Source: Methylocapsa sp. S129 (GTDB taxonomy: Bacteria > Pseudomonadota > Alphaproteobacteria > Rhizobiales > Beijerinckiaceae). Taken from it: a DNA stretch of 64,000 bases. The notes beneath the pieces were generated by a model, which did not search any database, was not told where the DNA came from, and saw only the letters and a program-made list of their open reading frames with translations. Shown piece after piece: positions 38,510-58,708 of this stretch; the first letter of the stretch is position 1, and each line of letters starts with the position of its first letter. The stretch is from NCBI RefSeq assembly GCF_009765995.1, contig NZ_LMUI01000016.1, positions 124,001 to 188,000 on the forward strand. Reading direction: 5' to 3'. The translations under genes were made by a program, and so were the position numbers.

Positions 38510-39703
38510 ATGTCGCCTGCGCCCCATCTCATTCTGTCGCAAGAGGCCGTTGCGCCGGGGTTGGAATGCGTCTTCCCCGACGACGAACTCGCGGCGCGCA
38601 TGGCGCGCTTGCGCGCCGCCATGCGCCAGCAGCGCTTCGACGGGTTGGTGCTGACGGGAGCGGAAAACATTTTCTGGCTGACGGGCCGCCAGACGCCGGG
38701 GCATTTCGCCTTCCAGGCGCTGTTCGCGCCCCTCGACGGCGAGCCCTTCATCATCGTGCGGCAATTGGAGGAAATGAATTGCCGCGCCAACACCCGTCTT
38801 GCCGATATTCGCACCTATGCCGACGATGAGGCGCCGGCGGATGTGCTTGTCGCGGCGATAACGGACCTCGGCTGGCGACATCGCCGCATCGCGACAGAGA
38901 TGCGCGGCGCCGGCCTGACGCCGGCCGCTTTTGCGCGTCTGGCGGCTTGCGCGCCCGACTTGCACGATGCGAGCGCGCTTGTCGGCGCGTTGCGCGCCGT
39001 CAAATCGCGGCTGGAGATCGCCTTCATCGAACAGGCGGCGCGCTATGCGGACGCCGGGCTAGAAGCCGGTATTGGCGCGATCAGGGTCGGAGCGAGCGAG
39101 AACGCTGTCGCTGCGGCGATGATGCAAGGGGCCATCGCGGCCGGTTCTGAATATGTCGGGATGGAGCCCCTGGTTTCGTCGGGACCGCGCAGCGGCATGC
39201 CACATGCGACATGGCGCCGTCGTCGGCTGGCGGCAGGGGATGGGCTGTTCCTTGAACTCGCCGGCTGCCACAACCGTTATCACGCGGCCATCCTGAGGCC
39301 GGTCTGGCTTGGCTCGATGCCTGACGAGGCGCGTCATATGCTAGAGGCGGCGCAGGCAGGGCTTGCGGCGGCGCTCGATGCCCTACGTCCGGGTGCGACC
39401 TGTGCGGATGTCCACCGCGCGGCGGAATCGGCCATCGATCGGCATGGTTTTGCCACAGCCTATCGCAAGCGGACAGGATACAGCATGGGCGTCGCTTTCG
39501 CACCGGATTGGGGGGAGGGCGATGTGTTGAGCCTCTATCGGGGCGTCGAGCGTCCTATCGAGCCAGGCATGGTGTTCCACATCCCGACGACACTGAGGGC
39601 GTATGGTCGCTTCACCATTGGCGTCAGCGAAACGGCGGTGGTGACCCAAGACGGGCCCCGATGTCTGTCCCGCATTCCGCGCCGGCTGTTCGAGATGTCG
39701 TGA
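38510..39703 (+). CDS. M24-family amidohydrolase, creatinase/ectoine-hydrolase type
   Basis: A 397-residue 'pita-bread' fold protein. Front: LVLTGAENIFWLTGRQTPGH; core: EYVGMEPLVSSGPRSGMPHA, LFLELAGCHNRYHAAILRPV and YRKRTGYSMGVAFAPDWGEG; end: GMVFHIPTTLRAYGRFTIG, then SETAVV. Metallo-aminopeptidases of this family have D-x-G...S-D-x-T-R-T; here it is LELAGCHNRYHAAILRP, so the paired metal-binding Asp residues are missing. Creatinase and ectoine hydrolase (DoeA/EutD) also lack them and hydrolyse C-N bonds without metal. It starts the rightward pair with the DapA-family gene. Its closest relative in the window is at 56576. Confidence 0.85.
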   Translation: MSPAPHLILSQEAVAPGLECVFPDDELAARMARLRAAMRQQRFDGLVLTGAENIFWLTGRQTPGHFAFQALFAPLDGEPFIIVRQLEEMNCRANTRLADIRTYADDEAPADVLVAAITDLGWRHRRIATEMRGAGLTPAAFARLAACAPDLHDASALVGALRAVKSRLEIAFIEQAARYADAGLEAGIGAIRVGASENAVAAAMMQGAIAAGSEYVGMEPLVSSGPRSGMPHATWRRRRLAAGDGLFLELAGCHNRYHAAILRPVWLGSMPDEARHMLEAAQAGLAAALDALRPGATCADVHRAAESAIDRHGFATAYRKRTGYSMGVAFAPDWGEGDVLSLYRGVERPIEPGMVFHIPTTLRAYGRFTIGVSETAVVTQDGPRCLSRIPRRLFEMS

Positions 39704-39790
39704 CGGCGCGCCGCTGGAACAATGTCTCAGGCGAAAGCCGCGCTCATTTTCCCACATCAACTTCCCTCCAATTGCGATCGGAACCCTCCC

Positions 39791-40723
39791 ATGCCCGCCC
39801 ACAAGATCAGCGAAACGACGCGCGGCGTCTTCATCATCGCGCCAACGCCCTTCGACGAGAGCGGCGCGGTCGACGCCTACAGCACGGATACGCTCGTTGA
39901 CTTCTTCCTTGCCAAGGGCGTCACGGGCATCACGATCCTTGGCGTGCTCGGCGAGGCGCCGAAGCTCTCGGCCATCGAGCGCAAGGACTTCATGACGCAG
40001 ACGCTCCGACGCGTCGCCGGGCGAGTCCAGATCGTTGTCGGCGCCAGCGACGCCGGCACGGACAATCTCGTCCGGTTCGCCAGGGAGGCGATGGATCTCG
40101 GTGCCGCGGGCCTGATGATCGCCCCCGTCGCGGGCCTCAAGACCGACGATCACGTCTATGATTATTGGGCGGCTGTACTGGAGAAGCTCGGACCGAATAT
40201 TCCCGTATGTTATCAGGACTATCCGCAGACGACGACCGTCGTCAGTTCGGTCTCCGTGCTCAATCGCTTGATCGACGCCTTCCCGAATTTCGTCATGCTG
40301 AAACATGAGGATTGCCCGGGCCTTGGCAAGATCACCAGCCTGCGCGACAGCGCCAGAGACGGCGCCCGTCGGCGCGTGAGCATCCTGGTCGGGAACGGCG
40401 GCCTCTATCTGCCGCAGGAATTGCGGCGTGGCGCAGACGGCGCCATGACCGGCTTCGCCTTTCCCGAGATGCTTGTCGAGGTTTGCGCAAAATTCTCCGC
40501 CGGCGCGGCCAAGGAGGCGGAAAATCTCTTCGACCTTTATCTTCCGGTGCTGCGCCATGAGCAGCAGCCGGGTTTCGGCCTGGCCATCCGCAAGGAAATC
40601 CTGCGGCGGCGGGGCGCCATAAAGTCCGCGAAAATCCGCCATCCCGGCCCGTCCCTGACGCCTGCCGATCATCGGGAGCTCGATGGGCTCCTTGTGCGCC
40701 TCAACAATCGTCTTGGAGCTTGA
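39791..40723 (+). CDS. DapA-family (dihydrodipicolinate synthase-like) lyase/synthase
   Basis: A 310-residue TIM-barrel protein of the DHDPS/NAL family: GVFIIAPTPFDESGAVD, ITILGVLGEAPKLSAIERKD and the Schiff-base Lys171 in FVMLKHEDCPG; the active-site Tyr is in VCYQDYPQTT. Members form or split C-C bonds of alpha-keto acids (for example dihydrodipicolinate, N-acetylneuraminate, keto-deoxy acids). It lies 87 bp after the M24 gene on the same strand. The same two-gene order recurs at 56576-58708. The substrate is not evident. Start ATG 39791 matches family length; the frame is open to 39722. Confidence 0.87.
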   Translation: MPAHKISETTRGVFIIAPTPFDESGAVDAYSTDTLVDFFLAKGVTGITILGVLGEAPKLSAIERKDFMTQTLRRVAGRVQIVVGASDAGTDNLVRFAREAMDLGAAGLMIAPVAGLKTDDHVYDYWAAVLEKLGPNIPVCYQDYPQTTTVVSSVSVLNRLIDAFPNFVMLKHEDCPGLGKITSLRDSARDGARRRVSILVGNGGLYLPQELRRGADGAMTGFAFPEMLVEVCAKFSAGAAKEAENLFDLYLPVLRHEQQPGFGLAIRKEILRRRGAIKSAKIRHPGPSLTPADHRELDGLLVRLNNRLGA

Positions 40724-40724
40724 C

Positions 40725-40965: not shown

Positions 40966-41739
40966 ATGAAAGTCGATCTCAATTCCGACCTCGGCGAGAG
41001 TTTTGGTGCCTGGACCATGGGCGACGATGCTGCGATGCTGGACATCGTGACCTCGGCCAATGTCGCGTGCGGCTTCCATGCGGGCGATCCGATCGTGATG
41101 CATCGCACGATCGCAGCCGCGCGGGATCGCGGCGTCAGCGTCGGCGCGCATCCCGGCTTTCTCGATCTGTGGGGGTTCGGCCGGCGGCCGATCCAAGGGG
41201 AAAGTCCCTCCGATATCGAGAAGATCATCGTCTATCAGGTCGGCGCGGCGATCGCTGTCGCGGCGGCGGCGGGATGGCGCGTCACCCACGTCAAGACCCA
41301 CGGTTCGATGGGTAATATGGCGATGGTCGATCCCGCTCTAGCCGACGCGATCGCCAAGGCCGTGCATACGGTGGATCGCGATCTGATCCTCGTCGTCATG
41401 CCGGCTCTGGAGCTGGAGAAGGCGGGAATGAAGCGCGACCTCGCGCTCGCGCGCGAGATCTATGCGGATCGCACCTATGACGATAACGGCAATCTGACGT
41501 CGAGGAAAAAAGAGGGCGCCGTCCTCCACGATCCGGCGGCGGCCGCCGCCCGCGTGCTGCGCATGATCGAAGAGCAGGCGGTTACGACGGTATCCGGGCG
41601 CAAATTGCCGGTCCGCATCGACAGCGTCTGCGTCCATGGCGACAAGCCGGAGGCTGTCGCCATGGCGCGTGCGGTTCGCGAGAGCCTCGAGGCCGCCGGC
41701 GTCGAACTGCGCCCCTTCGTCGAATTCGTGCGGTCCTAG
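40966..41739 (+). CDS. pxpA: 5-oxoprolinase subunit A (LamB/YcsF family)
   Basis: A 257-residue YcsF-family protein: MKVDLNSDLGESFGAWTMGD, TSANVACGFHAGDPIVMHRT, GAHPGFLDLWGFGRRPI and VKTHGSMGNMAMVD are conserved. PxpA with PxpB and PxpC forms the ATP-dependent bacterial 5-oxoprolinase that opens 5-oxoproline to glutamate. Usually pxpB, pxpC and pxpA are adjacent; here a leftward hydroxyacid dehydrogenase gene separates pxpA from pxpBC. It ends by overlapping that gene's stop by four bases, tail to tail. Confidence 0.9.
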   Translation: MKVDLNSDLGESFGAWTMGDDAAMLDIVTSANVACGFHAGDPIVMHRTIAAARDRGVSVGAHPGFLDLWGFGRRPIQGESPSDIEKIIVYQVGAAIAVAAAAGWRVTHVKTHGSMGNMAMVDPALADAIAKAVHTVDRDLILVVMPALELEKAGMKRDLALAREIYADRTYDDNGNLTSRKKEGAVLHDPAAAAARVLRMIEEQAVTTVSGRKLPVRIDSVCVHGDKPEAVAMARAVRESLEAAGVELRPFVEFVRS

Positions 41740-42734
41740 GCGATGGGCGCGACCGGCACGGGCAAGCGACGACGGCTCCAGACATCCGGATTGACGAGAT
41801 GCGCCGGCCGACGACCCTCGAGAATATCGGCGACTTGATCGCAAATGGCAATCGCCGTGGCCTGAAGCGCGGTCTCGGTCGTGCCGGCGACGTGAGGCGT
41901 GATTACGACCTGAGGGCTGGCCAAAAGGTTCTCATGCGTCTCCCCGCCTTCTTCGTGAGCCAGCACGTCGAGCCCAGCGCCAAAGAGCTGCTTCGATTGC
42001 AGCGCTGCGAGGAGGGCGTCCTCATCGATCAGTCCGCCGCGTCCCGTATTGATGAGGATCGCGCCGCGCTTCATGGCGGCCAGAGCGCCGCGTCCGATGA
42101 TGTGCCGCGTCTGCGGCGTCAATGGTAGGTGCAGGGAGAGCACGTGGGCCTCGGCGAGAAGAACGGCGAGGTCTTCTGTGAAAACGACATCGGAGCGCGG
42201 CGCGGCATCGGCATGGCCTCGCCGCCACGCGAGGACCCGCATGCCGAGCCCCGCCGCCGCGATTTCCGCTGTGGCGCGGGCCGTATGTCCCCAGCCGGCA
42301 AGCCCGAGAGTTCGTCCGCGAAGCTGCATGAAGTCATTTTCAAACTTGAAGCGAAGGTCGCGAGCACGCCCGGCGGCGTCCGCCTGCGGAATCCGGCGCG
42401 CCACGGCCAGCATCAGGGCGATCGCATGCTCCGCCACGGAATGGGCGTTGGCGCCGGGCGTGTTGACGACGGGAATGCCGCAGGCCGACGCGGCGGCGAG
42501 GGCGATCGAATTGTGACCGCTGCCATGGCATCCGATGGCGGCCAGGCGCTGTCCGGCTTCCATCATCGGTCGATCGATCGTCGCGTTGCGCGTGATCAGC
42601 GCATCGACGCTCGCCGCGAGGGACAGCAGCGCGCCGTGACCAGGCGCTGGAGCGATCGCGTCGATGCCTCGTTGGCGCAACAGCTCGAGCCCCACGCCAT
42701 GGATCGGCTGGAGGACGAGGCATCGACGCGTCAT
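41736..42734 (-). CDS. D-2-hydroxyacid dehydrogenase (NAD-dependent)
   Basis: A 332-residue protein of the D-isomer-specific 2-hydroxyacid dehydrogenase family. NAD binds at LGLAGWGHTARATAEIAAAG (a variant of GxGxxG with A at the last position), the catalytic Arg follows in ILINTGRGGLIDEDALLAAL, and VVITPHVAGTTETALQATA holds the catalytic His. The usual acid/base Glu lies between them (LDVLAHEEGGE). It is on the opposite strand to the pxp genes, so it is a separate transcript. An AT-rich region with TTGTAT and an imperfect mirror (42781-42808) lies upstream. Confidence 0.87.
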   Translation of the reverse strand: MTRRCLVLQPIHGVGLELLRQRGIDAIAPAPGHGALLSLAASVDALITRNATIDRPMMEAGQRLAAIGCHGSGHNSIALAAASACGIPVVNTPGANAHSVAEHAIALMLAVARRIPQADAAGRARDLRFKFENDFMQLRGRTLGLAGWGHTARATAEIAAAGLGMRVLAWRRGHADAAPRSDVVFTEDLAVLLAEAHVLSLHLPLTPQTRHIIGRGALAAMKRGAILINTGRGGLIDEDALLAALQSKQLFGAGLDVLAHEEGGETHENLLASPQVVITPHVAGTTETALQATAIAICDQVADILEGRRPAHLVNPDVWSRRRLPVPVAPIA

Positions 42735-42780
42735 AAATATGGCCTCCGCTCCAGAATGGCGTTTCGTCAGCGCGGCGGGA

Positions 42781-42808
42781 TTGTATTTTGTCGTGAAATA
42801 TATTCAAT
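42781..42808. promoter_or_regulatory. AT-rich imperfect inverted repeat
   Basis: TTGTATTTTG at 42781 is loosely mirrored by AAATATATTCAAT ending at 42808. It lies just upstream of the leftward hydroxyacid dehydrogenase start (42734) and shares TTGTAT with the perfect palindrome at 38406. It is a weak candidate for a site read by the same regulator. Confidence 0.3.
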
Positions 42809-42941
42809 CGCATCGCGCGCTTCGGGAACCGCCCCGTATGATGCAAGCCTTGCGGTCAAGAGACCGGGCGCGGCGGTTGCTGTCTCGAATCGCGCCAATC
42901 GGCCCACCTTTATTGAAGCGATCGTTCGGATAGGTCACGCC

Positions 42942-43700
42942 ATGTCCCCAGCGCCGCATTCCGGCCTTCCTTCGGCGGCGTTATGCCGCATCCTGAATGC
43001 GGGCGACTGTGGCCTCGTCGTCGAGTTTGGGTCCGCGGTGGACGCCAGGCTAAACGGTCTTGTCGTCGCGCTCGACGCCAGGCTTCGCAGCGAGGCTTTG
43101 CCGGGCGTTGTCGAGACGGTGCCGACCTATCGCTCGCTTCTCGTTCTCTTCGATCCCATCGTGCTAGGCCGTCGCGAACTAATCGCCAAATTGGAGATGA
43201 TGTCCGCCGATCTTCGGCCAGAAGACGATAGCCAAACGCGGCGCTGGTTCGTGCCCGTGACCTACGGGGAGGGTTTCGGCGAGGATCTCGATCACGTCGC
43301 GGCGCTGCATGGCCTGACGACTGATGAGGTGATCCGCCATCATTCGCAAGCCGAGTATCGGGTCTATATGATCGGTTTTGCGCCGGGCTTTGCCTATCTT
43401 GGCGGTTTGCCCGAGTTGCTCCACACGCCGCGGCGGATCGATCCGCGTCAGCGGACGCCCGCTGGCAGCATCTCGATCGGCGGCGTGCAAGCGGCGATCT
43501 CCTCGGTTGAAGGGCCAAGCGGCTGGCATTTGCTGGGGCGGACTCCTCTACGCACCTTCGATCTCGCTCGCGAGGACCCATTTCTGCTGAAGCCCGGGGA
43601 TCGCGTGCGGTTTCAGCCGGTACCGCAGGCCGAGTTTCTTCGCCTGAAGGCGATGTCGGAAAGCGGTGCCGTCACAGCGGAATGGGAGGCGGCGTCTTGA
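42942..43700 (+). CDS. pxpB: 5-oxoprolinase subunit B (allophanate hydrolase subunit 1 family)
   Basis: A 252-residue AHS1-family protein: RILNAGDCGLVVEFGSAVDA, VVETVPTYRSLLVLFDP, YRVYMIGFAPGFAYLGGLPE and TPAGSISIGGVQAAI are typical. It works with PxpC and PxpA on 5-oxoproline. Start ATG 42942 is chosen by family length; open frame continues upstream through the promoter region. Its stop overlaps the start of pxpC. Confidence 0.88.
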   Translation: MSPAPHSGLPSAALCRILNAGDCGLVVEFGSAVDARLNGLVVALDARLRSEALPGVVETVPTYRSLLVLFDPIVLGRRELIAKLEMMSADLRPEDDSQTRRWFVPVTYGEGFGEDLDHVAALHGLTTDEVIRHHSQAEYRVYMIGFAPGFAYLGGLPELLHTPRRIDPRQRTPAGSISIGGVQAAISSVEGPSGWHLLGRTPLRTFDLAREDPFLLKPGDRVRFQPVPQAEFLRLKAMSESGAVTAEWEAAS

Positions 43701-44710
43701 ACGCCGCCTTGCGGATCTCGGCGCCGGGCGGCGCGGCGACGATTCAGGACCTCGGTCGCCCCGGCTTTCAACGCTACGGCGTGCCGGAGGCCGGCGCGAT
43801 GGATCGAGGAGCTCTCAGGATCGCGAATCTTCTGGTTGGCAATGACGAGACGGAGGCATGCATCGAATTTGCGGTCGTCGGAGGCGCCTATGAGATGGTC
43901 GGCGGTCCCGGCCGGCTCGCCGTCGCCGGCGACTTCACCGTGACGGTCGACGGGGTCAAGCTCGCAGCGTACCAATCTTACGACCTGCGCGAGGGGAGCC
44001 GCTTGTCTATCGGCCGCAGCGCATCCGGCGTCTATGGCTATCTCGCTGTTGACGGTGGCTTAGACATCGCCGCTGTGCTCGGCAGCCGTTCGACGCATGT
44101 GCGCTCGGGCATTGGCGGCGGCGTCTTGCAAGCGGGGATGAGGTTGCCTTTGCGGCAGCAGCGGGAGTCTTTTGCCGTCGCGCAAATATTGCCGCGAGCG
44201 TCATGGCCGCAATACGATGGCCCCATCCGCGTGGTCCTGGGTCCACAGGACGATTTCTTCACGCCAAAGGGCATCGCCGATTTCCTAGCTGGCGATTATC
44301 GCGTCTCGCTTCGGTCGGACCGGATGGGCTATCGCCTGGAGGGCCCGCCCATCGCGCGTGCCGGCGATTTCAACATTGTGTCCGACGGCATCGCGCTTGG
44401 CAGCATCCAGGTGCCGGGCACGGGCCTGCCGATCGTGCTTCTTGCCGATCGTCAATCGACGGGCGGTTACCCGAAGATCGCCACGGTCGTCTCCTGCGAT
44501 ATCCGACGCCTCGCCCAACGCCGGCCGCAGGATGTCGTTCGTTTCGCCGCCGTTTCGGCGGACGAGGCCGAAGAGATCGCGAAAGCCGATCAGGCGGCGT
44601 TTCATGGACTCTGCAGCCATATCCGAACGGCGATCGATACCGATCCTTATGATTCAGCGCGGCTCTTGCAGCTCAATCTCGTCGACGGCTTCATCGACGG
44701 CGAGGTTTGA
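43697..44710 (+). CDS. pxpC: 5-oxoprolinase subunit C (biotin-dependent carboxyltransferase-like, AHS2 family)
   Basis: An AHS2-family protein of 337 residues: LRISAPGGAATIQDLGRPGF, MDRGALRIANLLVGND, YGYLAVDGGLDIAAVLGSRS and LADRQSTGGYPKIATV. The start chosen is TTG at 43697, which overlaps the pxpB stop by four bases (TTGA) and has GGGAGG eight to nine bases upstream; an in-frame ATG at 43682 is an alternative that adds five residues but would put that ribosome site inside its own coding sequence. It converges with the leftward M20 gene 54 bp away. Confidence 0.87.
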   Translation: MNAALRISAPGGAATIQDLGRPGFQRYGVPEAGAMDRGALRIANLLVGNDETEACIEFAVVGGAYEMVGGPGRLAVAGDFTVTVDGVKLAAYQSYDLREGSRLSIGRSASGVYGYLAVDGGLDIAAVLGSRSTHVRSGIGGGVLQAGMRLPLRQQRESFAVAQILPRASWPQYDGPIRVVLGPQDDFFTPKGIADFLAGDYRVSLRSDRMGYRLEGPPIARAGDFNIVSDGIALGSIQVPGTGLPIVLLADRQSTGGYPKIATVVSCDIRRLAQRRPQDVVRFAAVSADEAEEIAKADQAAFHGLCSHIRTAIDTDPYDSARLLQLNLVDGFIDGEV

Positions 44711-44764: not shown

Positions 44765-45997
44765 TCACTGCTTCGCCTGCCTGTCGCCGAAAGTGGCGGC
44801 GAGCGTTCTGACCGCAAGGGCGAGATCGGCCTCCCGCATCGCCTCGTGTGGATTGTGGCTGCCGTTCCAGTTGCAAAGAAACAGCATGGCGGCGTCCCAT
44901 CCCGCGGAGGCGAAGGCCGCGGCGTCATGGCCACCGCCTGACAGCATATGGCGCGGCGAGCGGCCGATGCGCGCGGCGCCCTCTGCGATGCGGGTGTTGA
45001 GGCCGGCGGATAGCGCGGCGGGCTTGCTGCGCGATTGCGCGCCGAGCGTGAAAATCACGCCGCGCCGGGCCTCGATGGCCGCGATCTCCTCCTTCAGGAT
45101 GGAATCCATGCGGTCGAGGACCGCATCGTGGCCGGAGCGGATGTCGACGCAGAACGCTGCGTTTCCCGGCACCTTGGCGAAGGCATGCTCGGAGCTGGCC
45201 GCGTCGATCCGGCCGAAGGTGACGGCCAGATCGTCGCCTTTTGCCAGAATCGCCGCCCAGTGGCGGTCGAGCGCGGTCACGAGATCGGCGAGGGCAAAGA
45301 CCGCGTCGGCGCGTTCCTCGCGCGGGGCGCCGCCGGAATGAGCCCAGACGCCGTCGACGCGCGCGTTGCGGTATCGGAGGCCGCCGCGAACGCCGGTGAC
45401 GAGCGCGAAGGGCTCGGCCGCCTTGTGCAGGACCGGCCCTTGTTCGATGTGCATTTCGACGAAGGTCGCCGCCGCGAGCCCCGGCCCCTTCAGGACCGCA
45501 TCGGGGTCGCCGCCTTCGCGCCGCATGTGCTCGGCCAGCGTCTCCCCGGTGTCGATGCGACGCGCTTCCAATTCGGGCGCCGTCAGGAGGCCGAGAGCCG
45601 CCCGCGAGCCGATATAGGAGACGGGAAACCAGACGCTTTCCTCGGCGCGGGTGACGGTCACGATCAGATCGACCGGCGGCGTCTCGCCGCTTTCGACGAA
45701 AGCCGCGGCCAGCGCCATCGCGCCCGCCACGCCATCATAGGCGCCGCCCATCGGCACCGTGTCGAGATGCGAACCGACGTAGAGCGGCGGCGCCGCGCGA
45801 TCGCGGCCGGGCAAGCGGGCGAAGAGATTGGCCGCGGCGTCGTGCGTCACCGCCATGGCGAGCCTTTCGGCTTCCGCCGCGATGACCGCGTGGGCCTCGG
45901 TTTCGAGCGGGCTGTAGGACGGGCGCGTATAGCCAGGACCTGGAAGGCTCAGGGCGTTCACCCGCTCAATGATCCTGCCGATCGTCGCCTCGATCAT
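44765..45997 (-). CDS. M20-family zinc hydrolase (N-carbamoyl-L-amino acid hydrolase/allantoate amidohydrolase type)
   Basis: A 410-residue M20 protein of the hydantoinase/carbamoylase branch. Metal ligands are in VGSHLDTVPMGGAYDGVAGA (His, Asp) and VTRAEESVWF (Glu), with EMHIEQGPVLHKAAEPFALV carrying the His and the family's EQGP motif, and LSGGGHDAAAFASAG near the end. Relatives hydrolyse N-carbamoyl amino acids, allantoate or ureidoglycolate. It is the last gene of a seven-gene leftward operon with the ectoine-type importer and two M24 proteins. Confidence 0.87.
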   Translation of the reverse strand: MIEATIGRIIERVNALSLPGPGYTRPSYSPLETEAHAVIAAEAERLAMAVTHDAAANLFARLPGRDRAAPPLYVGSHLDTVPMGGAYDGVAGAMALAAAFVESGETPPVDLIVTVTRAEESVWFPVSYIGSRAALGLLTAPELEARRIDTGETLAEHMRREGGDPDAVLKGPGLAAATFVEMHIEQGPVLHKAAEPFALVTGVRGGLRYRNARVDGVWAHSGGAPREERADAVFALADLVTALDRHWAAILAKGDDLAVTFGRIDAASSEHAFAKVPGNAAFCVDIRSGHDAVLDRMDSILKEEIAAIEARRGVIFTLGAQSRSKPAALSAGLNTRIAEGAARIGRSPRHMLSGGGHDAAAFASAGWDAAMLFLCNWNGSHNPHEAMREADLALAVRTLAATFGDRQAKQ

Positions 45998-47230: not shown

Positions 47231-47255
47231 GGGGCGGCCTTTGCGGATGATGCGG

Positions 47256-49887: not shown

Positions 49888-50543
49888 GCCGCCAGTCTGT
49901 CGCGGCCCTTGGCGAGCGCATGTTCGACCCCGCGCGTCCCTCCACTGATGACGAGCGCGATCGCAAAATAGATCAGGAGCACGACGATCAGCACCGGCGC
50001 GGTAACGACGTGAACCAGATTGATGTTCCTGGCCTGGAAGGTCAGGTCGGGAAGCGTGATCAGCGACACGAGCGAGGAGGCTTTCATCACCTCGATGGCC
50101 AGATTGCCGAACAGCGGCGTCATGATGCGCGCGGCCTGGGGCAACACGACGATGCGGAAGGCCTGAAAGCGATTAAAATTTAGGGCGATGGCCGCCTCGC
50201 GCTGTTCTCGCGCGACTGACCTCAAGGCGCCGCGCACGATTTCGGACCCGTAGGCCCCGTTGCAAAGGCCGATCGCCAGCACGCCGCAGAGCAGGGGCGT
50301 CATGCTGACGCCGAAGGCTGGCAGCACGAAGAACATCCAGAATAGTTGCGCCAGCAGCGAAGTGCCGCGAAACAGTTCGACATAGACAGTGGCGGGCGTG
50401 CGCAGGAGCCAGACGTTCGACTGCCGCGCGAGCCCAGCCAGCAGCGACAGTACGATGGCGAGCATGGTCGCCGTGACGGTGACCTGGATCGTGATCCACA
50501 CACCCTGCAGGAGCAGCATACGGTAGTCCCAGACGACCTGCAT
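49884..50543 (-). CDS. ehuC: Ectoine-type ABC importer permease (EhuC-like)
   Basis: A 219-residue inner-membrane permease: YVELFRGTSLLAQLFWMFFV, LCNGAYGSEIVRGALRSV, QREAAIALNFNRFQAFRIV and LPDLTFQARNINLVH. The first permease of the pair, encoded 91 bp after the binding protein and overlapping the EhuD-like gene by four bases. Start ATG 50543. Confidence 0.82.
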   Translation of the reverse strand: MQVVWDYRMLLLQGVWITIQVTVTATMLAIVLSLLAGLARQSNVWLLRTPATVYVELFRGTSLLAQLFWMFFVLPAFGVSMTPLLCGVLAIGLCNGAYGSEIVRGALRSVAREQREAAIALNFNRFQAFRIVVLPQAARIMTPLFGNLAIEVMKASSLVSLITLPDLTFQARNINLVHVVTAPVLIVVLLIYFAIALVISGGTRGVEHALAKGRDRLAA

Positions 50544-50634
50544 CGGCGCGGCGCTTCCCGTTTCAAAGATTTCGAGCGGATCGGCTTGAGCCGATCCGTC
50601 GCGGCTTAAAGGCCAAGCGCGAGCCTGGCTCGGC

Positions 50635-51504: not shown

Positions 51505-51570
51505 GCGTTCTCCATTTTCCTTTGCAGCATCCTGGGAGTGATAGTTTACTTTGCAGCAAAAAGAACAATA

Positions 51571-51580
51571 TTGTCTACAA
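51571..51580. promoter_or_regulatory. TTGTCTACAA palindrome upstream of the Ehu-like operon
   Basis: TTGT-CT-ACAA is a perfect 4+2+4 dyad in AT-rich DNA 67-76 bp before the binding-protein start. TTGTNNACAA resembles sites of FCD-type GntR regulators, two of which are encoded in this island. Short, so chance occurrence is possible. Confidence 0.4.
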
Positions 51581-51591
51581 CCGTTCCGCAT

Positions 51592-51891
51592 TCCGGCGTC
51601 GCGGCCAAAATGCGAGGCGGATCCTAAGGCTTATGCAAAACGCGGGCCATCAAGTTTAGTATGCTACGAAATGCACAATCTCGGACGGCCCGCGAACTTT
51701 GTTGACACGTTACGGAGCGCAATGCATGCCACGCCGAATGAGCCGGATCGAAGCCGAATGGCAGGGTTGGTTCTGCTTGATTGCTGCGCATCGATGACCA
51801 AAGCGCGGGCGTCCGCAGACCATTGGGCGCGATGGCTTATCCGAAGGGTCGAACCGTCACGCGCGAAGCGGCGCAACCAAGGATCAGTCCC
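51592..51891. other. Divergent 300-bp region without a gene
   Basis: Lies between the leftward Ehu-like operon and the rightward amidotransferase-like gene, so it should contain part of both promoters. An in-frame ATG at 51832 could extend the rightward gene by 20 codons. No other feature was seen. Confidence 0.45.
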
Positions 51892-53169
51892 ATGACGATC
51901 ATCCTCGTTGCGCATGATACGCTCATTCCGAGCCTCGATTGCATGATCGCGGGGGAAATGGCCGCCGAACGGGGCGCTCGCTTTGCGCCTCTGGTGAGCG
52001 GCGGCGCGGGTTTGTCGCGTTTCGATTGCGTGCAGCATGTGCTGGAGCAGGGCGAACTCGCCCCGAACGGCGTTCTGTGGGCCGAACGGGCCTGCGGCCG
52101 CCCGGTCGACGGGCTGGTCGATCGTGGCGCGGTAGCGCGTCTGCCGGACGAGATCGTCCTCGTGCCGCTTAACCCCGCCATTGCGTCGCATGGCGAAGCC
52201 GTCGCGCGGATAGAAGCCGGCGCGATCGCGGCCGGTCGACGACTGGAGCGTTATGACGTCACGGAGCGCGAGAGCGCCTTCGAAGTGCGGCGGCAGGGCG
52301 CGACGGCGCCGGTTTCGCTCTGGACTCGCGATAAGTTCGGTCGGCCAGTGCGCTCCGGTTTCCAAAGTGCGCGCACGGCGGGCGCGCCGCTGCGAATCCT
52401 GATTATCGCGGATGAGATCCTGCAGCGCGAGGTTTATCCCGCGAATATCGCCGCCCTTGGCGATGCCGCCGATGCGCTTGACCTCGACGTCGCCCTGAGT
52501 TTTATCGATCCGCGCATGCCTCAGGAGCGCGCCTGGGAGAAGATTTTGGCCGAGGCGGACGGCGTCCTGCTTCCCGGAGGATCGGATATGGAGCAGGTGC
52601 GCGGCCAGATCGACGTCGCTCGCGCGGCCCTCCGCACGAATGTCCCGACATTGGGTCTTTGCCTTGGCATGCAGACCATGAGCACCGCCGTCGCCCAGGA
52701 GGGCGCCGGACTTAACGACGCTAACCTCGCCGAGGCTGATCCAACGGCTCAGACCAAGACCTTTGTTCGCTTGCGCGACGAGAAGGGACGTCCGGAATTT
52801 CGGCTTGGTGTCAGGCCTTGCCGCATCGTTCCGGGGACCTGCCTTTCCCAGCTGCTGGGCGGTGCGGCGGAGATCGACGTTCATTACAACCATCGCTTTG
52901 TCCTCGAGACCACTCTGCACGAGCCTCTGGCCGCGGCGGGTCTGCGCATCAGCGGTCTGCACGAGGACCGCGACTTCGCGGACGCCATCGAAGCGCCTGG
53001 CCTCACCTTTTTCATGGGCATGCAAGGGCATCCGGAATTGGCGAGCCGGCGCGGCAGACCTCACCCGCTCATCACGGGCTTCCTGTTCGCCGCGGCCGCT
53101 CGTGAAAACTCCCAGAAGATCGCCCCGATTGATGGCGCGCCGTTGGCCGCCTCCGGACGTCGCCGCTAG
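51892..53169 (+). CDS. Class I glutamine-amidotransferase-like hydrolase with unknown N-terminal domain
   Basis: A 425-residue protein. From residue ~165 it has a class I amidotransferase (GATase1) fold: ILIIADEILQREVYPANIAA, DGVLLPGGSDMEQVRGQIDV, nucleophile Cys257 in TLGLCLGMQTMSTAVAQEG, DVHYNHRFVLETTL (~330) and His380/Glu382 in FMGMQGHPEL; the triad is complete and looks most like the CTP synthase glutaminase. The first ~160 residues (MTIILVAHDTLIPSLDCMIA onward) match no domain I know. There is no synthase domain, so it may hydrolyse a gamma-glutamyl or other amide. It is followed 26 bp later by a GntR regulator gene. Confidence 0.75.
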   Translation: MTIILVAHDTLIPSLDCMIAGEMAAERGARFAPLVSGGAGLSRFDCVQHVLEQGELAPNGVLWAERACGRPVDGLVDRGAVARLPDEIVLVPLNPAIASHGEAVARIEAGAIAAGRRLERYDVTERESAFEVRRQGATAPVSLWTRDKFGRPVRSGFQSARTAGAPLRILIIADEILQREVYPANIAALGDAADALDLDVALSFIDPRMPQERAWEKILAEADGVLLPGGSDMEQVRGQIDVARAALRTNVPTLGLCLGMQTMSTAVAQEGAGLNDANLAEADPTAQTKTFVRLRDEKGRPEFRLGVRPCRIVPGTCLSQLLGGAAEIDVHYNHRFVLETTLHEPLAAAGLRISGLHEDRDFADAIEAPGLTFFMGMQGHPELASRRGRPHPLITGFLFAAAARENSQKIAPIDGAPLAASGRRR

Positions 53170-53195: not shown

Positions 53196-54107
53196 ATGGA
53201 CATGGATCGCCGAGACAAAAAGCAAGCCCAATATCTCTTGGCGAATCTCATTCTCGACATCGCCCGCACCTTGCGTCTGAAGGTCGGGCATCATTTCACC
53301 GAGCAATGGCTCGCCAGGGAGCTTTCGGTCTCGCGCACGCCGGTTCGCTCGGCGCTCCAATTGCTGGCCGTGCGCGGCATCGTCGAAGCGCGCCGCAATC
53401 AGGGCTTCTTTCTCGCCATGCCCTGGAGCGAGTTGGACCCGCAGCACACTCTGGATGTGCCCTCGACCCCCGAGGAGACCTTCTATACTACCCTGATCCG
53501 AGACCGACTTGCTGGCGAGATCGCCGATTCCATCACCCAGACCGATCTGACGCGACTCTATCGGGTCAATCGCGTCGTTCTGATGCGCACCTTGAGCCGC
53601 ATGAGCGACGAGGGATTGATCATCCGCAACAAGGGACAGGGCTGGAGCTTTCTGCCGACGCTCGACTCAGCCCGCGCGCTGCGCAGCAGCTATGAGTTCC
53701 GCATGACCGTTGAGCCTGCCGGCCTGATGCTGTCCGGTTTCACGATTGATCTTCTCGCCCTCAAACGACTCAAAGCCGATCACAACTACGCGCTGTCGCG
53801 CGCCGCCGCGGCGATGTCGGATGGCGCGCTGTTCGAACTCGATTCGACCTTCCATGAAACGCTCGCCGCGTTTTCCGACAACCCGTATTTCCTTCAGGGA
53901 ATTCAGCAGCAGAATCGTCTGCGCCGCTTGCTCGAATACCAGGGCTACAGCAACCGGCGCCGCGTCCGTGAATGGGTGCGCGAGCATCTCAGCATCATTG
54001 AATCGCTTGAAGCCAACGATCGCCTGAGCGCCTCAAAACAGTTGCACGGGCATCTCGTCAACGCGATCGCGGCCTCGACGCGGAGCGCGGCCCGCTTGAT
54101 TGCCTAG
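53196..54107 (+). CDS. GntR-family regulator with two apparent winged helices
   Basis: A 303-residue regulator. The first winged helix is at ~30-75 (EQWLARELSVSRTPVRSALQ, then RGIVEARRNQGFFLAMP), and a second at ~110-150 (LTRLYRVNRVVLMRTLSRMS, then EGLIIRNKGQGWSFLPTL). The FCD-like part has FELDSTFHETLAAFSDNPYF and WVREHLSIIESLEANDR. The architecture matches the regulator at 37397, so both form one subfamily. It is 26 bp after the amidotransferase-like gene and 207 bp before the next operon, which probably contains its operator (54154-54184). Confidence 0.85.
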   Translation: MDMDRRDKKQAQYLLANLILDIARTLRLKVGHHFTEQWLARELSVSRTPVRSALQLLAVRGIVEARRNQGFFLAMPWSELDPQHTLDVPSTPEETFYTTLIRDRLAGEIADSITQTDLTRLYRVNRVVLMRTLSRMSDEGLIIRNKGQGWSFLPTLDSARALRSSYEFRMTVEPAGLMLSGFTIDLLALKRLKADHNYALSRAAAAMSDGALFELDSTFHETLAAFSDNPYFLQGIQQQNRLRRLLEYQGYSNRRRVREWVREHLSIIESLEANDRLSASKQLHGHLVNAIAASTRSAARLIA

Positions 54108-54314: not shown

Positions 54315-55478
54315 ATGTCGTCGTGTCCCGATGTCGCGCGCATGAAGCGGGAGCTGGCGGGCCTTGTGGCCATCGACACGCAAAACCCGCCCGGCGGCGA
54401 GGCGGCGGCGGCGCATTTCCTTCGCGATCTGCTAGCGGGGGAAGGCTTCGAGGTCGCCCTGCAGGAATACAAGCCAGGGCGCGTTAACGTCATCGCGCGG
54501 ATCGAGAACGGCGCTGGCCCGGTCTTCGCCTTCAACACGCATATGGATGTCGTGCCGGCGGGCGAGGGCTGGTCGTCCGATCCGTTTGCCTTGAGGGAAG
54601 CGGATGGCAGGCTCTACGGTCGCGGCGCCTCCGACTGCAAGGGGCCGCTCGCCGCCATGCTGGAAGCCCTGCGCATGCTCGCGGCCGACCGATCGACCTG
54701 GTCTGGCACGCTGCTTGGCGTCTTCGTCGCCGACGAGGAAATCGCGAGCGAGGGCGCCAAGTTCTATGCCGCTGGCCGCCCGAGGATCGACGCGGCGGTG
54801 ATCGGCGAGCCGACTTCGAACGCCGTCTTCGCCGCCCATAAGGGCAGCCTCCGCCCCATCGTGCGCGTGCATGGGAAGACAGCTCATTCTGGCGCGCCGC
54901 ATCTCGGGGAGAACGCGATTTTGCGCGCGGGCGCACTCCTCGGCCTCATCGCCGAACATCACGAGACGATCGTGAAGCACAGAACGCATCCGCTCGTCGG
55001 CGCGGCGAGCCTCACCGTCACCCGCATCGATGGCGGCCATGCCGACAATGTGCTCCCCGACGCTTGTGACCTTCTGCTCGACCGTCGGATGGTGCCGGGC
55101 GAAGACGAAGACATCGTCAAGCGCGACATCGACGATCTGCTGGCTCTCGCTCACACGCGTTTTGGCGTCCGAGCTGAGGTCGTCGCCTACAAACCGACGA
55201 CCGGCGGCGCGACGGAGACCGCGGCGGATGCCCGCATCGTGCAGGCGAGCCTTGCCGCGAGCCGCGCGCACGGCGTTGCCGAGCCCGGTCCGTTCGGCTT
55301 CCAGGGCGCCTGCGACCTCGTGCACTTTCGCAGCATCGGCGCCCAGGGCGTGGTGATCGGCCCCGGCGACCTCGCCGTCGCCCACAAGCCCGATGAGTTC
55401 GTGCCTGTGGATGAGTTCATCGCCGCGAGCCTGATCTATCGCGACGTCGCGCGGGCCATGCTGAGGGGTGGAAACTGA
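54315..55478 (+). CDS. M20-family deacylase (ArgE/DapE-like)
   Basis: A 387-residue metallohydrolase: His in FAFNTHMDVVPAGEGWSSDP, bridging Asp in LYGRGASDCKGPLAAMLEAL, Glu pair in VFVADEEIASEGAKFYAAG, next ligand in VIGEPTSNAVFAAHKGSL, dimer-domain His in KTAHSGAPHLGENAI and last His in AVAHKPDEFVPVDEF. All metal ligands are present. This family removes acyl groups from N-acyl amino acids (acetylornithine, succinyl-diaminopimelate). It starts a four-gene rightward operon and is followed at five bases by an N-acylamino-acid-racemase-like gene, a classical partner. Confidence 0.88.
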   Translation: MSSCPDVARMKRELAGLVAIDTQNPPGGEAAAAHFLRDLLAGEGFEVALQEYKPGRVNVIARIENGAGPVFAFNTHMDVVPAGEGWSSDPFALREADGRLYGRGASDCKGPLAAMLEALRMLAADRSTWSGTLLGVFVADEEIASEGAKFYAAGRPRIDAAVIGEPTSNAVFAAHKGSLRPIVRVHGKTAHSGAPHLGENAILRAGALLGLIAEHHETIVKHRTHPLVGAASLTVTRIDGGHADNVLPDACDLLLDRRMVPGEDEDIVKRDIDDLLALAHTRFGVRAEVVAYKPTTGGATETAADARIVQASLAASRAHGVAEPGPFGFQGACDLVHFRSIGAQGVVIGPGDLAVAHKPDEFVPVDEFIAASLIYRDVARAMLRGGN

Positions 55479-55482
55479 GCCG

Positions 55483-56583
55483 ATGCGCGTATCCCTACAC
55501 AAGGCGGAGCTTCATTACGGCGCCGGCCTCCTGCTGCATACCGCCTCGTCCGGCGCCGTGCCTCATCTGGCGGAGATCTATCTGCGGCTCGACGACGGCG
55601 AATCCGTCGGGATCGGCGAGGCGCGAGCCAATATTGCCTATCTGAATGGTCTTGCCGAGGGCGATGTCGTCGCCGGCGCCGTCGCGGCGCTCAAGGTCGT
55701 CGATTGGGCGCGCGATCCTGCCGAGCTTCTTCGCACGATGGAGGACTGGGCCGCGTCCTTCGCCGCGCCCGTGCGCATGCTGATCGACGTCGCGCTGCAT
55801 GATCTTGCGGCCCGCCGCGCGGGCCTGAGTGTCGCCGCCTGGTGCGGCGCGCCCGCGCCGGACATCGTTCGGGCGACCAACCAGACACTATTCTGGTCGC
55901 CGCTCCAAGAATTCCTGGCGCAGGCGCAGAACTACGTCGACCGGGGCTTCCGCGATCTCAAAGTGCGCGTCGCGGTCGGCGACTTCGACGCGGATCTGCG
56001 CCGGATCGCGGCCTTGCGGGGGCGCTTTGGCGATCGTGTGACGATCGCTGCCGACGCCAATGGCCGGTGGGCAGCGACGGAGGCGCTCGACAAGCTTCAG
56101 GCGCTCGCCCATTTCGATCTCGCGTATGTCGAGCAGCCGGTTCCGCCCGGCGACTGGACGGCGCTCAACCGCCTCGCCGATCGGAGCCCGGTGCCGGTCA
56201 TGCTCGATGAGAGCGTCGCCACGCCAGGCGACATCGCGCGCATTTGCGCCTATGGCGGCCGCGTCCTCGCCCATCTCAAGCTCGTCAAGCTCGGCGGCGT
56301 CGCCCCAACTATGGCCGCGGCGCGGCGTCTGTCCGCGGCGGGCGTTCCCTTCATGATCGGCCAGATGAACGAGGGCGCTGCCGCCACCGCCGCTGCGCTT
56401 CACGTGGCCTGCGCGACCGAGCCAGCCTTCTCGGAACTCTACGGCGCCGACGGGCTCCTCGACGATCCGATTTCGGGCGTCGCTTACGGCGAGGGCCGTG
56501 TGCGCATCGATCGGCTTTCTGGTCTCGGCGTTGCCTTTGACGCGGCGGCCGCCCAATGCATCGGAGAATTCGGACATGGATAG
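55483..56583 (+). CDS. Enolase-superfamily racemase/epimerase (muconate-lactonizing subgroup)
   Basis: A 366-residue barrel protein: KVRV (catalytic Lys, strand 2) in GFRDLKVRVAVG, metal ligands Asp in VTIAADANGRW, Glu in YVEQPVPPGDW and Asp in VMLDESVATP, and the second catalytic Lys in AHLKLVKLGGVAP. This layout is that of dipeptide epimerases, N-acylamino-acid racemase/o-succinylbenzoate synthase and muconate cycloisomerase. Next to an M20 deacylase, racemisation of an N-acyl amino acid is the best guess. Start ATG 55483; the stop overlaps the M24 start by eight bases. Confidence 0.83.
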   Translation: MRVSLHKAELHYGAGLLLHTASSGAVPHLAEIYLRLDDGESVGIGEARANIAYLNGLAEGDVVAGAVAALKVVDWARDPAELLRTMEDWAASFAAPVRMLIDVALHDLAARRAGLSVAAWCGAPAPDIVRATNQTLFWSPLQEFLAQAQNYVDRGFRDLKVRVAVGDFDADLRRIAALRGRFGDRVTIAADANGRWAATEALDKLQALAHFDLAYVEQPVPPGDWTALNRLADRSPVPVMLDESVATPGDIARICAYGGRVLAHLKLVKLGGVAPTMAAARRLSAAGVPFMIGQMNEGAAATAAALHVACATEPAFSELYGADGLLDDPISGVAYGEGRVRIDRLSGLGVAFDAAAAQCIGEFGHG

Positions 56584-57748
56584 ATCGGGCGTCGCGCAGG
56601 GTTCGGAATCGGCCTTCCCGAAGGCGGAATACGATGGCCGCGTGGCGCGGGCGCGCGAGGGCCTGACCAAGGCCAGCATCGACGTGATGGTTGTGACCGG
56701 GCCGGAAAACATCTTCTATCTCACAGGGCAGCAAACACCCGGCTACTACACGTTCCAGGCGCTCGTCCTGCCTGTGGAGGGCGACCCGGTCTTCGTCGTC
56801 AGAGAACTTGAAGTCTTCAACTTCATCGCCAACACCTTCATTGCAGACGCCAAGGTCTATCAGGACGGCGACGAGCCCGTAAAATTCCTGGTGGAGGTCA
56901 TCGAGGCGCGCGGCTGGGCGGCAAAGCGCATCGCGATCGACAAGCGCGGCTGGTTCCTGCCAATCGCAACCTACGAGGCCCTCCAGAGCCGGCTCGGCGC
57001 GATCCACGATGCGGCAGGGATCGTGGAAGCGCTGCGCATGGTGAAATCCCATGCCGAGATTGAAAAGCTGTCGAAGTCCGCCGCCTATGTAGACGCGGGC
57101 CTGCGCGCCGGCCTGGCCGCCGTGAAGGTGGGGGTGAGCGAGAACGACCTCGTGGCCGCCATGATGGGCGCGGCCATCACGGTTGGTTCCGAATATATGG
57201 GCATGGAGCCGCTGGTGTCCGTAGGTCGTCGCACGGGCGTGCCGCATGGCACCTGGAAGCGCAGCCGGCTTGGCGCGGACGAACCGGCATTCCTCGAAAT
57301 GGCCGCCAGCCACGACCGCTACCATGCGGCCCTGATGCGCTCCGCCTGGGTCGGCGCCATGCCTCAGGCGGCGCAGGATATGGAAAAGACCTGCCGCGAC
57401 GCGCTTCAGGCCGCCCTCGACGCGATCCGTCCGGGCGTCGCCTGCGAGGACGTTCACTTGGCCTGCCAGACGGTGATCGATCGCGCCGGCTATACGGATA
57501 ATTTTCGCAAGCGCACCGGCTACAGCGTCGGCATTTCCTTCGCGCCTGACTGGGGCGAAGGCGGCATCCTCAGTCTCTATAAAGGTGTCGCCACCGCGCT
57601 TCAGCCGGGCATGACGTTCCACATCCCCCCAGCGCTCCGCGCCTATGGCCAGTTTACGGTCGGCGTCAGCGAGACGGTCGTAGTCACCGAGACCGGCTGC
57701 CGCGTGCTTGGCGCCGTGCCCCGCCCCATCCTGCGCCTCGCCAGCTGA
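56576..57748 (+). CDS. M24-family amidohydrolase, creatinase/ectoine-hydrolase type
   Basis: A 390-residue paralogue of the protein at 38510: GPENIFYLTGQQTPGYYTFQ, EYMGMEPLVSVGRRTGVPHG, AFLEMAASHDRYHAALMRSA and FRKRTGYSVGISFAPDWGEG, then MTFHIPPALRAYGQFTVGVS. The metal-binding Asp pair is replaced as in creatinase and ectoine hydrolase. Its start lies inside the racemase stop (ATGGATAG), indicating coupling, and the DapA-family gene follows after 36 bp, repeating the order at 38510-40723. Confidence 0.85.
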   Translation: MDRSGVAQGSESAFPKAEYDGRVARAREGLTKASIDVMVVTGPENIFYLTGQQTPGYYTFQALVLPVEGDPVFVVRELEVFNFIANTFIADAKVYQDGDEPVKFLVEVIEARGWAAKRIAIDKRGWFLPIATYEALQSRLGAIHDAAGIVEALRMVKSHAEIEKLSKSAAYVDAGLRAGLAAVKVGVSENDLVAAMMGAAITVGSEYMGMEPLVSVGRRTGVPHGTWKRSRLGADEPAFLEMAASHDRYHAALMRSAWVGAMPQAAQDMEKTCRDALQAALDAIRPGVACEDVHLACQTVIDRAGYTDNFRKRTGYSVGISFAPDWGEGGILSLYKGVATALQPGMTFHIPPALRAYGQFTVGVSETVVVTETGCRVLGAVPRPILRLAS

Positions 57749-57784
57749 GGCCGACGTGGCTCAACATCATCCAGGACCTGCATC

Positions 57785-58708
57785 ATGAAGGACTTCTCAG
57801 AGTGCCATGCGCGGCTCCGCGGGCTATTCAACATCACGGTCACGCCGTTTCGCGCTGACGGCGCCTTCGACCATGAGGGCCTGGCGCGCAATGTGGAGCG
57901 GGCGATCGGGCTCGGCTTCAATGGCGTCCTGATCGGCGGAACCTATGGCGAGTTCCCGGCCATGTCGACGGATGAGCGCGCCAACATGTTCCGCCGCGTC
58001 ATGGACGTCGTCGGCGATCGGGCGCCGGTCATGCTGTGCAGCGCTGGCTCCGACACCCGTGTAGTGCGTGAGCTGACGGCGCTCGCCGGCGACCTCGGCG
58101 GCCTGCCGATGGTGACGCCGCCCTTCGTCTCAGAAGTAACCGACGAGCAGATCGTCGCCTTCTTCCGCGATATCGCCCCACTCTCGCGCACCGGGGTCCT
58201 AGTCTACAACGCGCCCGGCGTCGGCATCACACTGTCGCCCGCCGTGTTGGAACAGCTCGCTGAAATCCCCAACATCGTCGGAGTGAAGCAGGGCGACCTC
58301 TCTCCCACCGCCATCGATCGGATCGCCAACCGGCTCGGCGGCCGCATCCGGCTGTTCTGCGCTTCGGACCTAGCTTTCCTTGGCCCGATGATGGCCGGCT
58401 TTGACGGCGTCAGTTCGACCAACAGTTGCGCGTTGCCGGAATTGATCCTCGCCGCCTACCGCGCGCTGGAGGCGGGCGACGCGGCGACTGCGCGCGATCT
58501 CCACCGCCTGTGGTATCCGTTTCGGGCGCTCGCGCGTGAGTTTGGGCAGCCCCAGGTCGCCAAGGCCGCGATGACCCTGCGCGGCTTTGACGGCGGCTCG
58601 GTCCGTCCACCGCTGCGCGATCTCGATGCGGCGCAGGTCGAGCGTGTCGCAGCCGTGCTGCGCGATCTTAGCGCCGATCCGCGATCAGGCGTGCGCCTTG
58701 CCGGATGA
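57785..58708 (+). CDS. DapA-family (dihydrodipicolinate synthase-like) lyase/synthase
   Basis: A 307-residue TIM-barrel protein: GLFNITVTPFRADGAFDHEG, VLIGGTYGEFPAMSTDERAN, active-site Tyr in TGVLVYNAPGVGI and Schiff-base Lys168 in NIVGVKQGDLSP. It has the family fold but, as at 39791, the usual 'GTTGE' motif is replaced (GGTYGEF; there GVLGEAP), hinting at a different keto-acid substrate. It is the last gene of the rightward operon that starts with the M20 deacylase at 54315. Confidence 0.87.
   Translation: MKDFSECHARLRGLFNITVTPFRADGAFDHEGLARNVERAIGLGFNGVLIGGTYGEFPAMSTDERANMFRRVMDVVGDRAPVMLCSAGSDTRVVRELTALAGDLGGLPMVTPPFVSEVTDEQIVAFFRDIAPLSRTGVLVYNAPGVGITLSPAVLEQLAEIPNIVGVKQGDLSPTAIDRIANRLGGRIRLFCASDLAFLGPMMAGFDGVSSTNSCALPELILAAYRALEAGDAATARDLHRLWYPFRALAREFGQPQVAKAAMTLRGFDGGSVRPPLRDLDAAQVERVAAVLRDLSADPRSGVRLAG

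Follow-up and report, generated by a model that had tools for sequence, protein, structure and literature searches.

In a stretch of 64,000 nucleotides from Methylocapsa sp. S129 (NCBI RefSeq assembly GCF_009765995.1, contig NZ_LMUI01000016.1, positions 124,001 to 188,000 of the forward strand; hereafter the window), a gene for a hydrolase of family M24 is followed twice by a gene for a DapA-family protein. On balance, we regard it as probable that the two pairs belong to two catabolic clusters, related to each other but assembled separately, for a compound resembling an N-heterocyclic amino acid; in each, a DoeA-like M24 gene precedes the DapA-family gene. The order M24 then DapA at 38510-40723 and again at 56576-58708 was pointed out in an earlier note on this DNA, made from the sequence alone, and these coordinates hold. 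The genes within each pair are separated by 18 bp (M24_1/DapA_1, copy 1) and 36 bp (M24_2/DapA_2, copy 2). Gene content, conservation, subfamilies and active-site residues were read directly from the sequences compared.

37397-38386, minus strand: GntR1, divergent from M24_1, Pfam domains GntR and FCD
38510-39703, plus strand: M24_1, DoeA-like hydrolase, metal site apparently degraded, cluster B branch
39722-40723, plus strand: DapA_1, DapA family, Lys kept, Gln at the catalytic Tyr position
53196-54107, plus strand: GntR2, FCD-type regulator, predicted to have two winged helices, cluster A
56576-57748, plus strand: M24_2, DoeA-like hydrolase, metal site apparently degraded, cluster A
57785-58708, plus strand: DapA_2, DapA family, catalytic Lys and Tyr kept

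The two M24 proteins and their active site

M24_1 and M24_2 share 51% identity, compared to only 29-32% with the other two M24 proteins of the window, M24_3 and M24_4 (44% identical to each other). The closer relationship of the first two, stated in the earlier note, was thereby confirmed. The tree of M24 proteins contained 54 rows from chosen loci, out of 128 frames in which over 300 residues could be aligned; the short loci L087-L142 were excluded from the table feeding this tree and the DapA tree. M24_1 and M24_2 fell inside one clade of 39 rows (support 99/98), with DoeA, M24_3 and M24_4 outside. M24_1 joined its orthologue from genome G050 (100/99) and then the proteins of four loci bearing PxpABC (94/97, just short of the level starred as supported), and M24_2 grouped with the cluster A proteins described below. 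The two had been expected to be sister sequences: they do share a clade, but each is nearer to proteins of other genera.

For both proteins DoeA was the best relative among solved structures (1.8e-43 and 6.8e-48), whereas the match to creatinase was far weaker (9e-13 and 4e-6). In both NCBIfam models for ectoine hydrolase they remained below the cut-off, with 270 and 298 bits in NF038259 (cut-off 575) and 199 and 221 bits in TIGR02993 (cut-off 613) for M24_1 and M24_2, respectively. In the alignment to Pyrococcus prolidase 1pv9, the metal positions D209, D220 and H280 face Glu, Ala and Lys, and E327 faces Glu. E313 is matched by Glu, whereas the equivalent residue of PepE (4ege) faces Pro, which leaves this ligand ambiguous. 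The set of five prolidase ligands is thus incomplete, with three positions changed, one kept and one ambiguous. Judging from these alignments, M24_1 and M24_2 are proteins of the creatinase/DoeA type, in line with the creatinase-type assignment made before, and their metal site seems to be degraded.

Ten residues (H224, W227, E241, R248, Y249, H250, D325, W326, E328 and H349 in M24_2) were invariant in all 104 M24_2-type rows, i.e. those at least 48% identical to M24_2, near-duplicates included. DoeA has the same residue at all of these positions and at E366, and the motifs PHxTW, RYHA and PDWGE are common to both M24 proteins and DoeA. K312, which sits where prolidase has a metal-binding His, and R355 were likewise invariant (104/104) and also occur in M24_1 and its orthologue, but they are Ala and Trp in DoeA. 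These two residues may hold an additional acidic group on the substrate. M24_1 and M24_2 agree at 13 of 13 compared positions, most of which differ in M24_3 and M24_4. Because of this agreement, the residues suggest that M24_1 and M24_2 catalyse the same kind of reaction.

Copy 2 lies in a conserved operon

The second pair belongs to cluster A, a conserved, probably catabolic operon for a glutamine amidotransferase (GATase), a GntR regulator, an ABC transporter, an M20 deacylase, an enolase-superfamily protein, M24, DapA, an aminotransferase and a short-chain dehydrogenase (SDR). Besides GntR2, M24_2 and DapA_2, the window contains the following members.

51781-53169, plus strand: CTP-synthase-like class-I glutamine amidotransferase, GATase (Pfam GATase 2e-18)
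54315-55478, plus strand: M20_2, M20-fold deacylase of the ArgE/DapE type (Pfam M20 7e-35)
55468-56583, plus strand: MLE, enolase-superfamily (MR/MLE) protein

The GATase gene had been overlooked in the earlier note.

Our sample comprised the best 80 of 136 relatives in a collection with one genome per species, picked as best M24 matches. The organisms of these 80 loci fall under 41 labels, of which 36 are named genera and 5 stand for metagenome-assembled genomes; going by the names, they are alpha-, beta- and gammaproteobacteria. Genes were counted within 9 kb of the M24_2 relative, at identity thresholds of our own choice. M20_2, MLE and M24 were present in all 80 loci, followed by the transporter ATPase (78), GntR2 and the permease (77 each), the binding protein (76), GATase (67), the aminotransferase (58), DapA_2 (52) and SDR (41); VOC and GhrA genes were found in 14 loci each. 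DapA_2 directly follows M24 in 44 of the 80 loci. Since the M20 and enolase-type genes are present in 80/80 loci and DapA in 52/80, DapA seems to be an exchangeable step. The two-step pathway from M24 to DapA, as proposed at first, was rejected, the constant partners of M24 being the M20 and the enolase-type gene.

Of the 28 loci without DapA, 15 contain genes for VOC and/or GhrA instead. In the 62 loci that are complete (flanked by 9 kb or more on either side), 44 of them with DapA_2, the two endings were clearly separated. SDR was found in 38 of 44 complete loci with DapA_2 and in 0 of 18 without, VOC in 0/44 versus 9/18 and GhrA in 0/44 versus 10/18. In Caballeronia both endings occur, in different genomes. 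Among the annotated plasmid examples, drawn from six of 50 matched records, cluster A of Agrobacterium fabrum pAtC58 has no DapA gene but genes for VOC, GhrA and a D-amino-acid transaminase, and the clusters on Pantoea and Shinella plasmids include DapA. Complete loci with neither ending nearby (L009, L010, L011, L013, L017, L036, L045 and L052) perhaps use a third ending; the five from Bradyrhizobium are also without GATase and aminotransferase genes nearby. The stretches L151, L152 and L194 contain M24 and M20 genes and no enolase-type or DapA gene.

M20_2 reached 242 bits in TIGR01910 (cut-off 217.6). The MLE residues K165-x-R167, D196/E222/D247 and K271 were invariant in 93 of 93 rows. GATase is 34-64% identical to 28 homologues, and its Cys-His-Glu triad was invariant in all 29 rows. 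Its predicted structure resembles a shortened CTP synthase, the best match in Foldseek being CTP synthase, and its homologues have about 357-430 residues compared to 483-562 in the multidomain CTP synthases among the listed matches. The glutaminase triad is kept but the complete synthetase domain is not; the Agrobacterium homologue scored 134 against 308, its match being confined to the glutaminase part. The coding sequence of GATase probably starts near 51892, as in most homologues. The transporter found in other cluster A loci is of the amino-acid type (SBP_bac_3). In database records the cluster A enzymes are annotated as Xaa-Pro peptidase, CTP synthase and DapA family.

Copy 1 and the PxpABC genes

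The first pair is located inside cluster B, which consists of genes for PxpABC, a DUF1989 protein, an ABC transporter, DapA and a carbamoylase-like M20 protein. All three PxpABC subunits (LamB/YcsF, CT_C_D and CT_A_B) were above the Pfam cut-offs.

33151-36443, minus strand: polar-amino-acid ABC transporter, four genes (ATPase 33151-33978, permease 34004-34660, binding proteins 34712-35557 and 35586-36443)
36539-37156, minus strand: DUF1989 protein (PF09347, 8e-50)
40966-41739, plus strand: PxpA, LamB/YcsF (Pfam 1.6e-95)
41736-42734, minus strand: D-2-hydroxyacid dehydrogenase family
42129-43700, plus strand: PxpB, carboxyltransferase subdomain C/D (match at residues 287-487, so that the true start is downstream)
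43682-44710, plus strand: PxpC, carboxyltransferase subdomain A/B (Pfam)
44765-45997, minus strand: M20 protein, hydantoinase/carbamoylase family (Pfam; TIGR01879 208.6 bits, cut-off 204)

The two binding-protein genes at 34712-36443 (SBP_bac_3) are 64% identical over 280 residues and represent a tandem duplication.

In four other genomes (G045, G050, G087 and G266) DapA_1 is accompanied by PxpABC, DUF1989, an ABC transporter, another GntR regulator, a carbamoylase-type M20 protein and a D-2-hydroxyacid dehydrogenase, and in three of the four by an SDR. The only close orthologue of M24_1 that we saw (73-74%) is in G050, where an M20_2-like gene and one of the FAH type separate it from DapA_1. 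G266 (L144) carries clusters A and B side by side, like the window; no MLE gene was seen in the cluster A part of the stretch read. Since the M24 protein of the cluster B branch is the only match at 1e-70 in this genome, it may serve both clusters. In Bradyrhizobium L007, the order M24-DapA-PxpA-PxpB-PxpC is built with the cluster A versions of DapA and M24. PxpA or DapA_1 was found within 9 kb of a cluster A M24 gene in 6 of the 80 loci (L007, L008, L025, L026, L027 and L043).

Matches to M24_1 of either branch at 1e-70 occurred in 22 of 297 genomes of the order, in 4 of 149 of the family and, besides the genome under study, in none of five of the genus; at 1e-110, 6 of 385 genomes of the class had a match. 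The region therefore looks accessory.

GntR regulators

Both regulators contain a GntR and an FCD domain above the Pfam cut-offs and are 34% identical over 261 residues, in an alignment spanning both domains. In the predicted structure of GntR2 (pLDDT 92) two winged helices, at residues of about 3-73 and 92-152, precede the FCD domain; a second winged helix in GntR1 is assumed from its alignment to GntR2. A long GntR regulator of the same architecture near each copy had been described before, and this stands, except that GntR1, taken there to begin at 38362, has an earlier ATG that extends it to 38386. The 50 PDB matches listed for GntR2 were GntR-family regulators of at most 278 residues. The GntR1 orthologue of G050 (67%) adjoins the M24_1 orthologue. 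Our literature search, in open-licence papers, found no description of a GntR regulator with tandem winged helices.

DapA-family proteins and the origin of the pairs

Of the nine DapA-family genes in the genome (10 match rows, two sharing one frame), the two in the window belong to different subfamilies, with 27% identity over 246 residues. Both were above the Pfam cut-off of the DHDPS superfamily (PF00701, cut-off 22.1; DapA_1 83.9 bits, DapA_2 154 bits) but below that of the DapA equivalog TIGR00674 (80.5 and 123.5 bits, cut-off 206.15) and also under the KdgD equivalog cut-off. The Schiff-base Lys is kept in both; the catalytic Tyr position of YNxP is Tyr in DapA_2 and Gln in DapA_1. The nearest solved relatives are DHDPS-like proteins for DapA_2, and 3dz1 and L-2-keto-3-deoxyarabonate dehydratase for DapA_1. 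In a tree with very long branches, which included six other paralogues of the genome but not its gene in L164, DapA_1 and DapA_2 were placed in separate clades (100/100 and 100/99) that join weakly (70/86). The DapA_1 clade includes a paralogue from another contig of the same genome (L166, 48%).

The M24 and DapA trees and the active-site residues led us to reject a co-duplication of the pair, as implied by the term repeated module. Because the DapA clades and residues differ and each M24 protein has closer kin elsewhere, the pairing appears to have arisen more than once, separately, and the M24 proteins to be cousins. The gene order of L007, made up of the other DapA and M24 subfamilies, likewise favours convergence. 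This would therefore speak for linked chemistry, not co-duplication.

The pairing exceeds what chance would give, since a random neighbour would be a DapA-family gene with a chance of about 0.1% (our estimate from nine genes in 6.87 Mb). When the search was reversed, 8 of the 297 genomes of the order, the one under study included, had a DapA_2 orthologue (E-value at most 1e-80), with an M24 relative within 4 kb in all eight and directly adjacent in six. The association seen in the window is thus conserved for copy 2 (52/80 loci, and 8/8 in reverse) and rare elsewhere for copy 1.

Several observations weigh against our reading of two catabolic clusters. Of the 80 loci of cluster A, 28 are without DapA, and among the 62 complete ones 8 show neither ending nearby; many of the 80 loci are closely related by selection, so that the counts are not independent. 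Cluster A in the window has no gene for the usual transporter, the best match to the binding protein in the genome being 31-32%. Searching the genome at 1e-40 gave no match for the SDR, and the aminotransferase match (49%) is on another contig. For copy 1, DapA_1 (at least 67%) has an M24 gene within 4 kb in only 3 of 5 genomes (the one under study, G050 and G266), the M24 protein of G266 being a mere relative of the cluster B branch, and none of the other genomes searched showed M24_1 and DapA_1 as immediate neighbours.

That last result, together with the cluster B loci of G045 and G087, where DapA_1 occurs without M24 in the stretches read, would fit a chance adjacency of unrelated operon parts in copy 1, copy 2 alone being a functional pair. 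We consider this unlikely. The orthologues of M24_1, GntR1 and DapA_1 lie within about 5 kb in G050, DapA_1 and the M24 gene of the cluster B branch are at most 4 kb apart in G266, and L007 shows a comparable order M24-DapA-PxpABC. Furthermore, the M24 clade is present in 7 of 8 genomes with DapA_1 (at least 60%) compared to 21 of 297 overall (hypergeometric 2.4e-8, with inputs read by eye, the 60% line set post hoc, the genome under study included and genome size uncontrolled).

Proposed pathway and alternative explanations

If the two clusters are catabolic as we propose, we infer the reaction types, their order and the class of substrate as follows. An amino-acid-type ABC transporter would import the N-heterocyclic amino-acid-like compound. 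The M24 protein, its metal site degraded as in DoeA, would hydrolyse a ring or amidine C-N bond, and the product, an N-acylated amino acid, would be deacylated by the M20 protein. The enolase-superfamily protein may alter a stereocentre or eliminate a group, and the CTP-synthase-like glutaminase may take off an amide. Transamination would lead to a 2-oxo acid, which DapA_2, together with the SDR, would cleave or dehydrate; in other genomes VOC and GhrA would replace this step. Cluster B would use a DapA protein of a different subfamily along with PxpABC, the carbamoylase-like M20 protein and DUF1989. A more specific version, which we offer tentatively as somewhat short of probable, is that cluster A is an undescribed, widely shared proteobacterial operon with two interchangeable endings, for an N-heterocyclic amino acid having one acidic group more than ectoine, held by K312 and R355, and that cluster B is a matching pathway which came to the M24-DapA pairing by convergence, with another lyase subfamily.

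The PxpABC genes could also mean that the pathway concerns the breakdown of hydantoin, N-carbamoyl or 5-oxoproline-like (gamma-lactam) compounds, with M24 and PxpABC as alternative openers of lactam or ureide rings. PxpABC and a carbamoylase-family M20 protein occur together in cluster B of the window and of G045, G050, G087 and G266, and a PxpA gene is found close to cluster A in L007, L008, L025, L027 and L043. Moreover, the M24 gene of the cluster B branch in L006 is near dihydroorotase, Asp/Glu-racemase-family and hydantoinase/carbamoylase-family genes. These five are the only ones of the 80 loci with PxpA near cluster A, however, and PxpABC may just handle ordinary 5-oxoproline, so that we judge this explanation to be rather unlikely.

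The degradation of ectoine or hydroxyectoine by a divergent hydrolase, with the M20 protein in place of DoeB/EutE and the aminotransferase and later genes in place of DoeD and DoeC, would account for the close relationship of both M24 proteins to DoeA and for their common motifs. The order of hydrolase, deacetylase and transaminase in the described route, as given in the review of ectoine catabolism PMC5924519, also agrees with this. Nevertheless it is improbable. Ectoine itself was rejected as substrate, both proteins being below the curated ectoine hydrolase cut-offs, and the conserved K312 and R355 are replaced in DoeA. A protein nearer to DoeA is encoded elsewhere in the genome (446 bits, cut-off 613), which has 12 M24 matches in total. 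We recognised no eutABCE, asnC or enuR-like gene in the open reading frames scanned, where no dedicated search was made.

Equally improbable is a scavenging of unusual dipeptides by M24 and M20 peptidases, with a dipeptide epimerase and an incidental DapA, for although the M24 protein is annotated as Xaa-Pro peptidase family in the records, the enolase-type matches include L-Ala-D/L-Glu epimerases and the window has a peptide/nickel-type ABC transporter further downstream, the prolidase metal positions are changed, the enolase-type protein has K-x-R in 93/93 rows (K-x-K in 3i4k) and a C-terminal motif like that of the muconate lactonizing enzyme 3i4k, and the cluster A transporter is of the amino-acid type.

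Neighbouring genes

Between the two clusters lies a third one, outside the M24-DapA pairs, and a transporter whose link to cluster A is putative follows downstream.

46082-51591, minus strand: cluster C, whole
46082-47230 and 47256-48452, minus strand: M24_3 and M24_4
48449-51591, minus strand: cluster C ABC transporter (ATPase 48449-49219, permeases 49216-49887 and 49884-50543, binding protein 50635-51591)
58986-63989, minus strand: peptide/nickel-type ABC transporter (ATPase 58986-60584, permeases 60586-61401 and 61398-62342, binding protein 62379-63989)

M24_3 and M24_4 are thus tandem DoeA-like genes with their own ABC transporter, and they lack most of the residues that M24_1 and M24_2 have in common. 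Cluster C genes are also found beside cluster A in Ancylobacter L036 and, within the limits of the locus, in L018, with M24 proteins 76-83% identical. Genes resembling the peptide/nickel-type transporter occur near the M24 gene closer to ectoine hydrolase mentioned above (L171:8463-9710, contig C6). The first 32 kb of the window were covered by a listing of open reading frames, comparison with reference proteins, base composition and one Pfam query.

Comparison with known systems

Our literature search, by family words or locus prefixes, found the clusters not described in open-licence papers, and this is weak evidence because only such papers were covered. The gene set, kept in 80 loci, suggests a natural compound that is common and whose degradation is seemingly unassigned. 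The two endings were never found together in the 62 complete loci. This provides a handle for working out the intermediate, which DapA and a GhrA-type reductase should both be able to accept.

Creatinase (creatine amidinohydrolase) is a member of the M24 family that cleaves C-N bonds. It belongs to the same family as M24_1 and M24_2, but is much more distant from them than DoeA.

The DoeA/EutD pathway shares with the clusters the M24 type with its presumably degraded metal site and a hydrolase gene near a deacylase gene, and the ectoine binding protein EhuB also scores in SBP_bac_3, the family of the usual cluster A binding protein. In contrast to DoeA, M24_1 and M24_2 remain below both curated cut-offs and carry the clade-specific K312 and R355. 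The deacylase here is an M20 protein and not DoeB/EutE, and MR/MLE, GATase, DapA and SDR are additional. The regulators are EnuR and AsnC in the ectoine pathway, according to PMC5924519, and GntR proteins here.

Compared to 5-oxoprolinase PxpABC, cluster B has all three subunits and, in addition, M24, DapA, DUF1989 and a carbamoylase-family M20 protein. DapA_1 is of the same family as L-2-keto-3-deoxyarabonate dehydratase and shares with it the Schiff-base Lys and Gln at the Tyr position, but the gene context is different. Likewise, DapA_2 has the family and the Schiff-base Lys in common with DHDPS and KdgD, in a different gene context.

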